From: Fuscovulum blasticum DSM 2131
GTDB lineage: Bacteria > Pseudomonadota > Alphaproteobacteria > Rhodobacterales > Rhodobacteraceae
NCBI RefSeq assembly: GCF_003034965.1
Contig: NZ_PZKE01000005.1
Location: 62,001-126,000, forward strand
Length of the DNA: 64,000 nucleotides
Reading direction: 5' to 3'
Shown here: positions 1,348-9,946 of the stretch, in pieces
Layout: the number at the start of each line of letters is the position of its first letter
Numbering within the stretch: position 1 is the stretch's first letter
Program-made: the position numbers and the translations under genes
Notes under the pieces: generated by a model
Told to the model about the DNA's origin: nothing
Databases searched by the model: none
What the model saw: the letters and a program-made list of their open reading frames with translations, nothing else

Positions 1348-2136
1348 TCAGGCGGCCGCCTGAACCGCGTGGCCGGTCAGCACCTTGACCAGATGCGCGC
1401 GATAGGCGGGCGTTCCATGCAGGTCGTGGATCATGCCGTCGGGCGAAACCGTCAGCCCCGCGATGGCCGAAGCCGCGAAATTGGCCGACAGCGCCGCCTC
1501 GGCCTCGGTCCAGCGGAAGACACCGTCGCCCCCTGCCCCCGTGACCGCCACCCGCACGCCATCGGCCGTTTTCGCGACGAAGACGCCGGTCAGCGCAAAG
1601 CGGCTGGCGGGCTGGTCGAACTTCACATAGGCGGCCTTCTGCGGGATCGGAAAGACCACCGAGGTGACAATTTCACCTTCGTGCAGCGCCGTGGTGAACA
1701 GGCCCTGGAAGTAATCATCCGCGGCGATGCGACGGCGGTTGGTGACGATCGTGGCGCCCGATGCCAGCACGCCGGCCGGATAGCAGGCCGAAGGGTCGTT
1801 GTTGGCGATCGAGCCGCCGATGGTGCCGCGGTTGCGCACCTGCGGGTCGCCGATGCCACCGGCCAGCGCGGCCAGCGCCGGATAGTGTTTCGCGGCCTCG
1901 CGCGCCACTTCGGCATGGGGGGTGGCGGCGCCGACATGCAGGCCCCCTTCCCCGATGCAGACGCCCTTCAGCTCGGGGATGCCGGTCAGGCTGACCAGCG
2001 TCGCCGGGGCGGCAAGGCGCTGCTTCATGCTGGCAATCAGCGTCTGCCCGCCCGACAGCGCCTGCGCGCCGTCGGATTTCAGGGCGGCCAGCGCATCGGC
2101 CAGGGTTGCCGGTTTGACGAAGTCGAAGTTGTGCAT
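1348..2136 (-). CDS. coxM: Molybdenum hydroxylase FAD subunit (CoxM family)
   Basis: At 262 residues this is the medium, FAD-binding subunit of a xanthine oxidase/CO dehydrogenase-type enzyme, passing electrons from the 2Fe-2S subunit to an acceptor. The FAD_binding_5 motifs are visible: SGGQTLIASMKQR near residue 30, and RNRGTIGGSIANNDP near residue 105, the diphosphate-binding TIGGS loop. The family C-terminal domain follows. It is the last gene of a minus-strand coxG-S-L-M operon, 11 bases after coxL. The S-L-M order and the form II large subunit mean CO oxidation should not be assumed, and the substrate is unknown. The symbol reflects family membership only. Confidence 0.9.
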   Translation of the reverse strand: MHNFDFVKPATLADALAALKSDGAQALSGGQTLIASMKQRLAAPATLVSLTGIPELKGVCIGEGGLHVGAATPHAEVAREAAKHYPALAALAGGIGDPQVRNRGTIGGSIANNDPSACYPAGVLASGATIVTNRRRIAADDYFQGLFTTALHEGEIVTSVVFPIPQKAAYVKFDQPASRFALTGVFVAKTADGVRVAVTGAGGDGVFRWTEAEAALSANFAASAIAGLTVSPDGMIHDLHGTPAYRAHLVKVLTGHAVQAAA

Positions 2137-2147
2137 CTGAACCTCCC

Positions 2148-4523
2148 TCAGCGCTGGTGCATCGCGGCCCAGACGCGGGCCGGAGAGACGGGCATGTCGA
2201 TATGGTCGATGTGGCTGTAGCCGCCGCGTTGCAGGGCGTCGATCACGGCATTCACCACGGCGGGTGGGCTGCCGATGGCCCCCGCCTCGCCGCAGCCCTT
2301 CACGCCCAGCGGGTTGTGGGTGCAGGGCGTGATGCAGCTATGATCCACCTTGAAGAACGGCAGATCATCGGCGCGCGGCATGGCGTAATCCATGAACGAG
2401 CCCGACAGAAGCTGTCCGTTCTCGTCGAAGACGCAGTTTTCCAGCATGGCCTGGCCAATGCCTTGCGCCAGACCGCCATGCACCTGCCCTTCCACGATCA
2501 TCGGGTTCACCACATTGCCGAAGTCATCGGCGGCGGTGAAGGCCAGGATCGTCACCTTGCCGGTGTCGGGGTCGATCTCCAGCTCGCAGCCATAGGCGCC
2601 GGCGGGATAGGTGAAGTTTGACGGGTCGTAGAAGGCGGTCTCTTCCAGCCCCGGCTCAAGGCTTTCCAGCGGGTAGTTGTGCGGCACATAGGCGGCCAGC
2701 GTGATGTCCACCCAGGTCTTTGACCTGTCGGTGCCCGCCACGGTGAACTTGCCGTCCTTGAACTCGATGTCCTGTTCGCTGGCCTCCAGCAGATGCGAGG
2801 CGATCTTCTTCGCCTTGTTGATGATCTTGTTGGTGGCCTTGACCATGGCAGAGCCGCCCACCGCCAGGCTGCGTGACCCGTAGGTGCCCATCCCCATCGG
2901 GCTGTTCGACGTGTCGCCGTGGACGATCTCCACCTGACTGGCGTCGATGCCGATCATCTCGGCCACGACCTGGGCGAAGGTGGTCTCATGCCCCTGCCCG
3001 TGGCTGTGGCTGCCGGTGAAGATGGTGATCGAGCCGGTGGCGTTCACCCGCACCGTGGCGCTTTCGTAAAGCCCGGCCCGCGCGCCCAGTTGCCCGACAA
3101 GGTTTGACGGCGCAATGCCGCAGGCCTCGATGTAATGGGCAATGCCGAAGCCGCGCAAACGCCCGCGTTTCTTCGACTCTTCGGCCCGCGCGGCAAAGCC
3201 GGCGTGGTCGGACAGTTCCAGCAGCTTGTCCATCGTGGCCTGATAATTGCCGGTGTCATAGACCACGGCGACCGGCGTCTGATAGGGAAACTGGTCGGGC
3301 TGGATGAAGTTCTTGCGCCGCAGTTCGACCGGGTCCACCCCCAGTTCGCGCGCCGCCTTGTCGATGATCCGTTCCAGTTGATAGGTCGCCTCGGGGCGGC
3401 CTGCGCCGCGATAGGCATCGACCGGCACGGTGTTGGTGAAAACGGCTTTCACGTTCACATAGACCAGCGGCGTCTTGTAGTTGCCGGCCATCAGCGTGCC
3501 GTGCAGCCAGGTGGGAATCGAGGGCGCGAAGGTGCTGAGATAGGCGCCCATGTTGGCATGGGTTTCGGTGCGCAGCGCCAGGAAGTTGTGGTCCTTGTCC
3601 AGCGCCAGTTCGATCCGGGTCAGGTGGTCGCGGCCCTGTGCATCGGAAATGAAGGCTTCGCTGCGCGAGGCGGTCCATTTCACCGGGCGTTTCACCTGCT
3701 TGGCGGCAAAGGTCACCGCCGCCTCTTCGGCATAGTGATAGATCTTCGACCCGAAGCCGCCGCCCACATCGGGCGCCACCACGCGCAGCTTGGATTCCGG
3801 GATGCCCAGCACGAAGGCGCCCATCAGCAGCCGGATGACATGCGGGTTCTGGCTGGTGGTATAAAGCGTGTGCATCCCCGAATGGTCTTCGTAATCGCCC
3901 ACGGCGACGCGGGGTTCCATCGGGTTGGCGACAAGGCGGTTGTTCACCAGATCCAGCGTGATGTGATGCGCGGCGCCTTCAAAGGCCTTGGCCACGGCCT
4001 CGCGGTTTTCCTCGACGAAACCCCAGTCGTAGCACAGGTTCGAGGTCAGCTCGTCATGCACCTTGGGCGCATCGGGCTTGAGCGCGTCCTTCATGTTCAG
4101 GACGGGCGGCAGTTCCTCGATCTCGACCCTGATCGCCTCGGCGGCGTCGCGGGCCTGATCCAGCGTTTCGGCCACCACCATGGCGATGGGATCTCCGACA
4201 TGGCGCACCTTGCCATCGGCCAGAACCGGGTGTTTCGGTTCCTGCATCACCTTGCCGAAGCGGTCTGTCACCTGCCAGCCGCAGGGAATACCGCCGACGC
4301 CGGCGAAATCGGCCGCGGTGAAGATCCGCACCACGCCCGGCATGTCTGATGCCGCCGCGGTATCAACCGACTTCAGCCGCCCATGCGCCACGTCGCTGCG
4401 CAGGAAGAAGGCGTAAAGCTGGCCGCGGATGTTGATGTCGTCGGTATAGCGTCCCTTGCCGGTCAGGAACCGCACGTCTTCGCGCCGCTTCACGCTGGCG
4501 CCGATGCCACCATCTTTGGGCAT
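2148..4523 (-). CDS. coxL: Molybdenum hydroxylase large subunit, form II CoxL-like
   Basis: This 791-residue protein has the full length of the catalytic, molybdopterin cytosine dinucleotide-binding subunit. Motifs are VGGGFGSK at residues 253-260 and GVKGCGEAG near the C-terminus, which holds the general-base glutamate of the family. At residues 370-376 it reads AYRGAGR. True aerobic CO dehydrogenases (form I) have AYxCSFR there, whose cysteine holds the Cu of the Mo-Cu site. AYRGAGR marks form II, so this enzyme lacks the Cu ligand and probably oxidises another aldehyde, heterocycle or similar substrate. No coxDEF maturation genes for the Mo-Cu centre are in the operon. It probably forms an (LMS)2 complex with its neighbours. 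Confidence 0.92.
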
Positions 4524-9170: not shown

Positions 9171-9247
9171 CTTCGGCCTCCCCGCCGAACATGAAGCCTA
9201 AGCCGCAGCATCCCGCTGCGTAAAGGGCCGCGTGCGACTGACCGCGC

Positions 9248-9946
9248 TCAGCCGTCTTCCGGCATCAGGCTGGTGAAATCGGTGGCCTTGGCCATCAGCA
9301 CCGCCTGCGTCCGGCTTTGCACCCCCAGCTTGCGCATGATCGCGGTGACATGCGCCTTGACCGTGGTTTCCGCGATGGTCAGATCCCAGGCGATCTGCTT
9401 GTTCAGCTTGCCTTCGCAGATCAGTTGCAGGATGCGCGATTGCTGCCGTGTCAACAGCGCCAGCCGCGAAATCGCCTCTTGCCGGGTCGAGGGGCGGGCG
9501 CCGCCGGGTGGTTCCGCCTCATATCCTTCGGGAAGGTAGCGCCCGCCGCCGCGCAGCGCGTCCACCGCCGCGCGGAACACGTCGCGCCGGGCGTGTTTGG
9601 GCACAAATCCCGCCGCCCCCGCCGCCAGACAGGCGCCGATCACGCGCGGATCGGCCATCGAGGACACCACCAGAACCGGCACCTCGCCCGCCGCCTGCCG
9701 CAGGCGGATCAGCCCGTCGATGCCGGTCACATCGGGCAGGTTCAGGTCCAGCACCACCAGATCGGGCAAGGGCGCGCGGTCCAGCCGGGCCAGCGCGGTT
9801 TCCAGCCGGTCGGCAGTTTCCACCGCGCCCAGTCCCGCCACCGCCTTCAGCGTCATCGACAGCGCGTCACAGAACAACGGATGGTCGTCCACGATCAGGG
9901 CCGTGGCCATGGGGCGCGGGGCGATACGGGCTGGCGTCGGGGTCAT
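9248..9946 (-). CDS. LuxR/NarL-type response regulator
   Basis: At 232 residues it has an N-terminal receiver (ALIVDDHPLFCDAL, phospho-acceptor in LVVLDLNLPDVTG, VVSSMADP, VPKHA) and a C-terminal LuxR helix-turn-helix (LTRQQSRILQLICEGKLNKQIAWDL, split, then TVKAHV...RKLGV). It should bind DNA as a dimer once phosphorylated, most simply by the neighbouring hybrid kinase. I kept the ATG at 9946 because AAGGGA lies 10 bases upstream. The receiver itself starts near the ATG at 9910. It is the first gene of the minus-strand sensor-kinase-cox array. This arrangement resembles the NosP-NahK-AgmR/ErbR grouping of pseudomonads. Target genes are not known, and the cox operon is the nearest candidate. 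Confidence 0.88.
   Translation of the reverse strand: MTPTPARIAPRPMATALIVDDHPLFCDALSMTLKAVAGLGAVETADRLETALARLDRAPLPDLVVLDLNLPDVTGIDGLIRLRQAAGEVPVLVVSSMADPRVIGACLAAGAAGFVPKHARRDVFRAAVDALRGGGRYLPEGYEAEPPGGARPSTRQEAISRLALLTRQQSRILQLICEGKLNKQIAWDLTIAETTVKAHVTAIMRKLGVQSRTQAVLMAKATDFTSLMPEDG

Follow-up and report, generated by a model that had tools for sequence, protein, structure and literature searches.

A FIST–kinase–LuxR cassette and a shared operator-like box may tie form II cox genes to alcohol oxidation in Rhodobacteraceae

In Pseudomonas, the genes nosP-nahK/pedS1-agmR lie in the ped cluster, according to the available part of the source (PMC12997753), and these ped/exa regulators, nosP (PA1975/PP_2663), nahK/ercS'/pedS1 and agmR/erbR, represent the same three protein families as a cassette that we analysed in Fuscovulum blasticum DSM 2131. 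The cassette, encoding a LuxR-type response regulator, a FIST protein and a hybrid histidine kinase (HK), lies upstream of coxG, coxS, coxL and coxM in a stretch of 64,000 nucleotides (nt) (GCF_003034965.1, NZ_PZKE01000005.1, 62,001-126,000), the whole of which is called the window below. As in Pseudomonas, many of the window's relatives have pyrroloquinoline quinone (PQQ) alcohol-dehydrogenase (ADH) genes next to it; unlike the Pseudomonas genes, it has the order LuxR-FIST-HK and a form II cox neighbour, and its own genome is without matches to PQQ markers. A FIST protein is likewise encoded with a histidine kinase in the NosP-NahK nitric oxide (NO) signalling of P. aeruginosa, Legionella and Burkholderia, as far as the partly available sources describe it, whereas in the present case the partner is a LuxR regulator, a DNA-binding protein, and metabolic genes lie alongside. 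FlhRS of Paracoccus is a further comparable pair, a regulator and kinase for one-carbon (C1)/formaldehyde oxidation in the accessible portion of PMC8879981. A literature search, with most subscription papers outside its coverage and others available in part, returned no description of the cassette with cox genes or of the operator-like box reported below. Our comparison suggests that the cassette is probably the alphaproteobacterial counterpart of Pseudomonas nosP-pedS1(nahK)-agmR, an alcohol/aldehyde regulator with the form II cox genes in its regulon.

Gene order, conservation, the box and the co-occurrence of box and cassette were computed. The family survey comprised 295 genomes, one per genus, and FIST was matched at E 1e-50 or lower in 119 of them. 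Mapping with marker genes yielded 130 loci (129 plus the window; 14 of the 32 FIST loci of a second type were left out), and LuxR, FIST and HK adjoin in that order in 121 of them. Two types of cassette were distinguished, the window type with 104 loci (a count that includes L131, 45% identical, which groups with the other type in the tree) and the second, or C1, type with 22. The cox genes adjoin 52 of the 104 window-type cassettes across the family, 46 with coxS or coxL and six with coxG alone (L066, L070 and L077 end at a contig or stretch end; L053, L073 and L091 do not). The original prediction, made from this DNA alone, was to fall if the gene order were unique to this strain, and it is not. 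Genes of the ped set, namely those for the PQQ methanol/ethanol-family dehydrogenase (TIGR03075), cytochrome c550 PedF, PedC permease, a PQQ-linked ATP-binding cassette (ABC) binding protein and a beta-propeller protein, each family named from one representative, adjoin 44 window-type cassettes. Taken together, 32 of these loci have cox without ped nearby, 20 have both, 24 have ped only and 28 have neither. The genes around the cassette in relatives suggest alcohol/aldehyde oxidation, a context absent from the original prediction.

Phylogenetic placement was examined with a concatenated tree of the three cassette proteins, which omits 13 of the 130 loci (L045 included) where not all three proteins were extracted. 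The co-directional layout seen in the window forms a single clade (13 such loci plus L091, support 0.98), and outside it the cox genes are divergent from LuxR. Separately, seven FIST-kinase pairs had no LuxR gene mapped beside them (L047, L067, L068, L212, L215, L229 on a 6-kb contig, and L248), and a LuxR relative was located elsewhere in three genomes with such a pair (G046, G049 and G234).

A 21-bp imperfect inverted repeat, about CTACGACCwwGGTCnnATAGC, recurs in the coxG promoters of relatives. With the window left out, these promoters served to train a weight matrix, which was applied with a cut-off of 12 bits; 99.9% of shuffled promoters (n = 1100) scored under 12.0 bits. When 54 linked coxG promoters, window included, were scanned from the hit start, the box reached at least 12 bits in 47, an in-sample figure, and those below were the window, L013, L034, L070, L092, L096 and L108; L025, outside the 54 with no coxG mapped, had no site. 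Among named loci outside the training set, the box was found at 12 bits or more in 36 of 38 coxG promoters (L199 and L201 fail), these loci having no FIST fragment identical to one in the training set and still being relatives, some with promoters near-identical to trained ones (L219/L051). Locus L219, from Cereibacter johrii, a close relative of R. sphaeroides, combines the window layout with a 27.3-bit box. The box lies a median of 50 bp from the coxG start codon, and 39 of the 43 promoters with a scored box have TANNNT 18-20 nt past it. This spacing puts the centre of the box near -42, where class II activators bind.

The same matrix, untrained on ped promoters, detected sites before the genes for PQQ-ADH (29/41), pedF (29/31) and the ABC binding protein (30/35), and in the named loci, Sinorhizobium and Ensifer records among them, it did so in 14/14, 11/11 and 11/11 cases, respectively; the pedF and ABC binding protein counts are not independent, because the two genes are often divergent neighbours. 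A box also precedes the LuxR gene of the cassette itself at 41 of 100 loci (19 of 63 named loci), partly in the same intergenic region as coxG. No box was present in the gene-internal controls (coxS 0/49, coxL 0/50, coxM 0/46, FIST 0/106), in the further controls (YVTN 0/36, pedC 0/32, c16 0/26) or in the controls from named loci (coxS 0/34, coxL 0/31). Scans of 12 whole genomes gave a hit with 0-1 mismatch in six, and each one was the coxG site.

In C1-type loci the box is rare (LuxR 1/22, ABC binding protein 2/7, PQQ-ADH 1/5). These loci carry FIST between regulator and kinase and resemble FlhRS as judged by gene context, the C1 label resting on two conserved genes that Pfam leaves unnamed; gfa lies near in 6 of the 22, and PQQ-ADH or pqq genes in 11. 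The window-type cassettes differ from them both in the box and in the tree, where the C1-type trios stand apart. A FIST gene between FlhR and FlhS goes unmentioned in what is available of the FlhRS literature (PMC8879981). The trios that resemble FlhR-FIST-FlhS are L016-L020, L059, L060, L125-L130 and L132-L140, and some of them adjoin gfa or PQQ genes.

To follow box and cassette between genomes, 20 cox operons from genomes without a FIST match (E 1e-50) were compared with 20 from genomes carrying the cassette elsewhere, all drawn from the coxL list and not at random. The box reached at least 12 bits in 0 of 20 cassette-free and 11 of 20 cassette-elsewhere operons (Fisher p 1.5e-4); the last five of the latter were picked knowing that cox lay near a ped marker, which tells against the comparison, and without them the count is 7/15 (p 0.001). 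For operons starting with coxS, the counts were 0/17 and 5/12 (p 0.007). At E 1e-45 the LuxR protein had no match in any of the 20 cassette-free genomes and one match in each of the eight others searched. A single match was obtained both in the F. blasticum genome and in each of seven box-related genomes, G234, G049 and G046 among them, in which the gene stands apart from FIST-HK. Two genomes, G234 and G049, have FIST-HK without LuxR, which lies on another contig, and their cox genes are still boxed (21.8 and 19.7 bits). In G136, coxG at the cassette (12.3 bits) and coxSL elsewhere (19.7 bits) both carry the box. Tree-aware pairing across all branches gave 10.7 against 0 of 17.6 pairs in which the box follows the cassette, and a quick tree gave 2.7 of four pairs; the cox tree omits 6 of 95 loci (L053, L066, L070, L073, L077 and L091) for which coxS and coxL were not both found. 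The regulatory link between cassette and cox that had been predicted is supported by the conserved neighbourhood, the shared operator-like box and the tracking of the cassette by the box, and on these sequence comparisons it appears likely to be real.

In the window, the seven predicted genes were confirmed as open reading frames on the minus strand, in the order LuxR, FIST, kinase, coxG, coxS, coxL, coxM. The LuxR/NarL-type response regulator (9248-9946, 232 aa; Pfam Response_reg and GerE) is AgmR/ErbR/ErdR-like, and its best match among 66 NCBIfam models was ErdR (NF041830) with 152.5 bits, below the cut-off of 390. The NosP-like FIST protein (7995-9170, 391 aa), whose gene is the sole FIST match in its genome at E 0.001, passed the Pfam cut-offs for FIST (136.9 bits) and FIST_C (78.7 bits) and scored 364.9 bits with NosP (NF041558), below the cut-off of 450. 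The NahK/PedS1-like hybrid histidine kinase (5797-7998, 733 aa; Pfam PAS_7 in two stretches, HisKA, HATPase_c and Response_reg), which overlaps FIST by the predicted four bases (ATGA, 7995-7998), has the architecture and the adjoining FIST gene of a NahK-type kinase. It scored 345.6 bits with near_NosP_CTERM (NF041832; cut-off 400) and 409.5 bits with NF041831 (cut-off 1500), the best stretch of the latter being C-terminal, 478-852 of 854. The proposed kinship with NosP and NahK is supported at the level of homology, with both scores under the cut-offs; the three proteins are relatives rather than certified members of NosP, NahK/ErcS and ErdR. The residues of a phosphorelay are conserved: the phospho-acceptor Asp of LuxR is present in 122 of 123 aligned relatives (a gap in the remaining one), the phospho-His of the kinase in 122 of 123 and its receiver Asp in 112 of 123 (eight gaps, two Gly, one Glu).

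From these data we infer the following course. The FIST protein would contact and gate the hybrid kinase, which would pass phosphate to the LuxR regulator and so set its phosphorylation; the regulator would then bind the 21-bp inverted repeat near -42 and activate coxGSLM as a class II activator. Where PQQ alcohol-dehydrogenase (ped) genes are present, they would be served by this regulator and box as well. Within the 104 bp that separate HK from coxG lies a distinct promoter-like region, so that cox need not share one transcript with the cassette.

Several observations weigh against this assignment. All three cassette proteins are below the NCBIfam cut-offs. Half of the window-type cassettes (52/104) lie apart from cox, including 28 that have no ped marker nearby either; cox operons are common in genomes without any cassette, and 9 of the 20 cassette-elsewhere cox operons are without a box. 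Two controls were less clean, sel1 with 3/27 and HK with 26/107, the region in the latter being FIST coding sequence. When phylogeny was controlled for on the supported branches of the more careful tree, 4.3 against 0.0 of eight pairs had the box following the cassette, a consistent direction that is not significant (p 0.125). In the genus group of the window, FIST is matched in 8 of 13 genomes and unmatched in five, and the window layout occurs in only four. Also to be counted here, and taken up below, are a PrrA site described in print for the cox operon of R. sphaeroides and the presumptive nature of the aldehyde substrate.

For the window taken by itself, the most serious objection to a simple reading is its own degenerate box. 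The copy before coxG (5761-5741, minus strand; ATACGACTATCGGAGAATGGC) has the place and spacing seen in relatives, in register with the -10-like element TAGGCT 19 nt past it (5716-5721, minus strand), yet it scores 6.2 bits. The matrix scan found no box before the window LuxR gene either, and inspection of the alignment by eye revealed no change in the LuxR recognition helix that would compensate for the degenerate box. Within the same genus group, G006 has a box of 10.0 bits, and G005 and G010 have boxes of 26.1 and 24.6 bits. As the box has decayed in this strain, its cox genes may be less tightly controlled than those of relatives.

The F. blasticum genome contains only two other candidates for a strong box, with three mismatches each, and three-mismatch hits occur at the level of the backward control across the 12 scanned genomes. 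Both candidates were unconvincing, one lying in a coding frame read as ssb and the other in an intergenic region after a choline-dehydrogenase-type frame (labels by eye). The window cassette is not beside PQQ-ADH/ped genes, and searches of the genome for the ped marker TIGR03863 (E 1e-30), PqqE (1e-80) and TIGR03075 (1e-100) all came back without a match, so the cassette is kept here without its usual companions. In genomes without the ped marker this is mostly together with cox, 23 of 34 window-type cassettes being cox-adjacent (L053 with coxG only; L066 cut by a contig end). We infer that the absence of ped genes reflects a loss.

The original prediction had the same wiring with a different input: the FIST protein would sense NO through haem, and the molybdenum hydroxylase would be controlled mainly by NO or the haem state. 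This is the best-surviving alternative and, in our judgement, an unlikely one. NosP proteins elsewhere bind haem and NO and gate a kinase, in the available text of PMC12570481 and PMC11784011, and the FIST protein of the window is related to NosP, albeit with a score under the cut-off of that model. Both FIST types retain its His213, His372, Cys75 and Cys333, each with a conservation of 94-100%. A search of the literature found no publication naming the haem-ligand residue of NosP proteins, and the predicted structure of the FIST protein (mean pLDDT, the predicted local distance difference test, 75.7) falls under 50 at residues 365-373, around His372, for which reason we make no claim on a haem pocket. 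A sequence search of the PDB with the FIST protein returned no FIST relative, and the best PDB matches of its model were human FBXO22 structures, solved with BACH1, which is haem-responsive. NirK and NirS are unmatched in the F. blasticum genome, although NO could come from outside the cell, and across the 295 genomes nitrite reductases occur in 32 of 103 cassette genomes against 52 of 192 others (p 0.5). Denitrification or NO as the driver was set aside on this lack of association, and NO as the controlling signal is unsupported. The relatives' neighbourhood is instead one of alcohol oxidation.

It is less probable again that the box belongs to another regulator, such as an FlhR-like protein or PrrA, and that the cassette co-occurs with it for historical reasons. 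Support for this comes mainly from R. sphaeroides, whose cox operon RSP_2876-79 has the same genes as that of the window, compared by description only, and for which the parts of the publications available to us name no upstream cassette. That operon changes in stress and glutathione experiments (PMC3320616, PMC5036791), and the first of these sources, in its available part, reports the PrrA site. Excerpts of PMC5036791 and PMC8307010 further state that Pos19 over-expression raises the mRNAs of cox and of RSP_2590 and cite a study of the CcsR1-4 small RNAs as placing cox in a glutathione-influencing pathway, and the latter source, likewise seen in part, gives flhR mRNA as a target of CcsR1-4. 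The degenerate box next to an intact cassette in the window would also fit. Against another regulator stand the box before the cassette LuxR gene at many loci and its rarity in C1-type loci. Box and LuxR gene are both absent from the 20 cassette-free genomes, and in G234 and G049 the cox genes are boxed although LuxR, FIST-HK and cox are spread over separate contigs or widely spaced.

The enzyme encoded next to the cassette is, as predicted, a form II molybdenum hydroxylase. CoxL (2148-4523, minus strand, 791 aa; Pfam Ald_Xan_dh_C, MoCoBD_1 and MoCoBD_2), the molybdenum-cofactor subunit, carries AYRGAGR at residue 370 and is without the AYRC motif, and the gene order is SLM; motif and order are the marks of form II carbon monoxide (CO) dehydrogenase (coxSLM) in the available part of PMC13203968. 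CO oxidation by form II enzymes is doubted and their role is called unclear in the accessible text of PMC13203968 and PMC6794299; unlike in those accounts, the enzyme here appears tied to an alcohol-oxidation regulon. The best NCBIfam model for CoxL was glyceraldehyde dehydrogenase alpha (675 bits, below the cut-off of 790). The shared regulon with alcohol genes and this match, sub-threshold as it is, suggest an aldehyde substrate. The likeliest identity of the form II cox enzyme is that of an aldehyde-type molybdenum hydroxylase within the alcohol regulon rather than a CO dehydrogenase.

A CO-sensing switch, with CO bound by the FIST haem and the form II enzyme acting as a CO dehydrogenase, is very improbable. 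CoxL does align with the aerobic CO dehydrogenase model (654 bits, cut-off 991), and a haem FIST protein could in principle bind CO; the motif, however, is that of form II, with its doubted CO oxidation (available part of PMC6794299), and the box is common to alcohol dehydrogenase genes. A chance or hitch-hiking neighbourhood without functional link can practically be dismissed, for although 52 of 104 cassettes are apart from cox, the other 52 adjoin it, in two orientations spread across the tree, 36 of 38 coxG promoters outside training share the box, and unlinked cox operons have it in cassette-bearing genomes (11/20 against 0/20).

Returning to the assignment of the cassette to alcohol and aldehyde oxidation, we advance a wider version of it only tentatively. 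The Rhodobacteraceae form II enzymes could be the arm of a PQQ alcohol-oxidation regulon that oxidises aldehydes in the cytoplasm, controlled through FIST, kinase and LuxR and one conserved class II operator, and after loss of PQQ metabolism the cassette could have become a regulator with nearly a single target.

The remaining cox genes of the window are coxG (5123-5692, 189 aa; Pfam COXG, 105.8 bits), coxS for the [2Fe-2S] subunit (4593-5078, 161 aa, eight Cys; Pfam Fer2 and Fer2_2) and coxM for the flavin adenine dinucleotide (FAD) subunit (1348-2136, 262 aa; Pfam FAD_binding_5), all on the minus strand. Downstream of coxM and in the same direction lies an HNH endonuclease gene (575-1300, minus strand; Pfam), as in several window-type loci; of the 14 co-directional loci, six show this marker. 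On the minus strand further upstream (12336-20514), MttB-like genes and a glycogen/phosphoglucomutase block were read off the translations, and many relatives likewise have this block with their window-type cassette.

By linking this molybdenum enzyme to alcohol oxidation, a family-wide cis-element would give it a testable role, and the box would serve as a handle for reading the rest of the regulon. In alphaproteobacteria, NosP-like FIST cassettes would thereby be viewed less in terms of biofilm signalling and more as controls of metabolic genes. Should the form II enzymes indeed be the aldehyde arm of this regulon, their purpose in Rhodobacteraceae would be settled.

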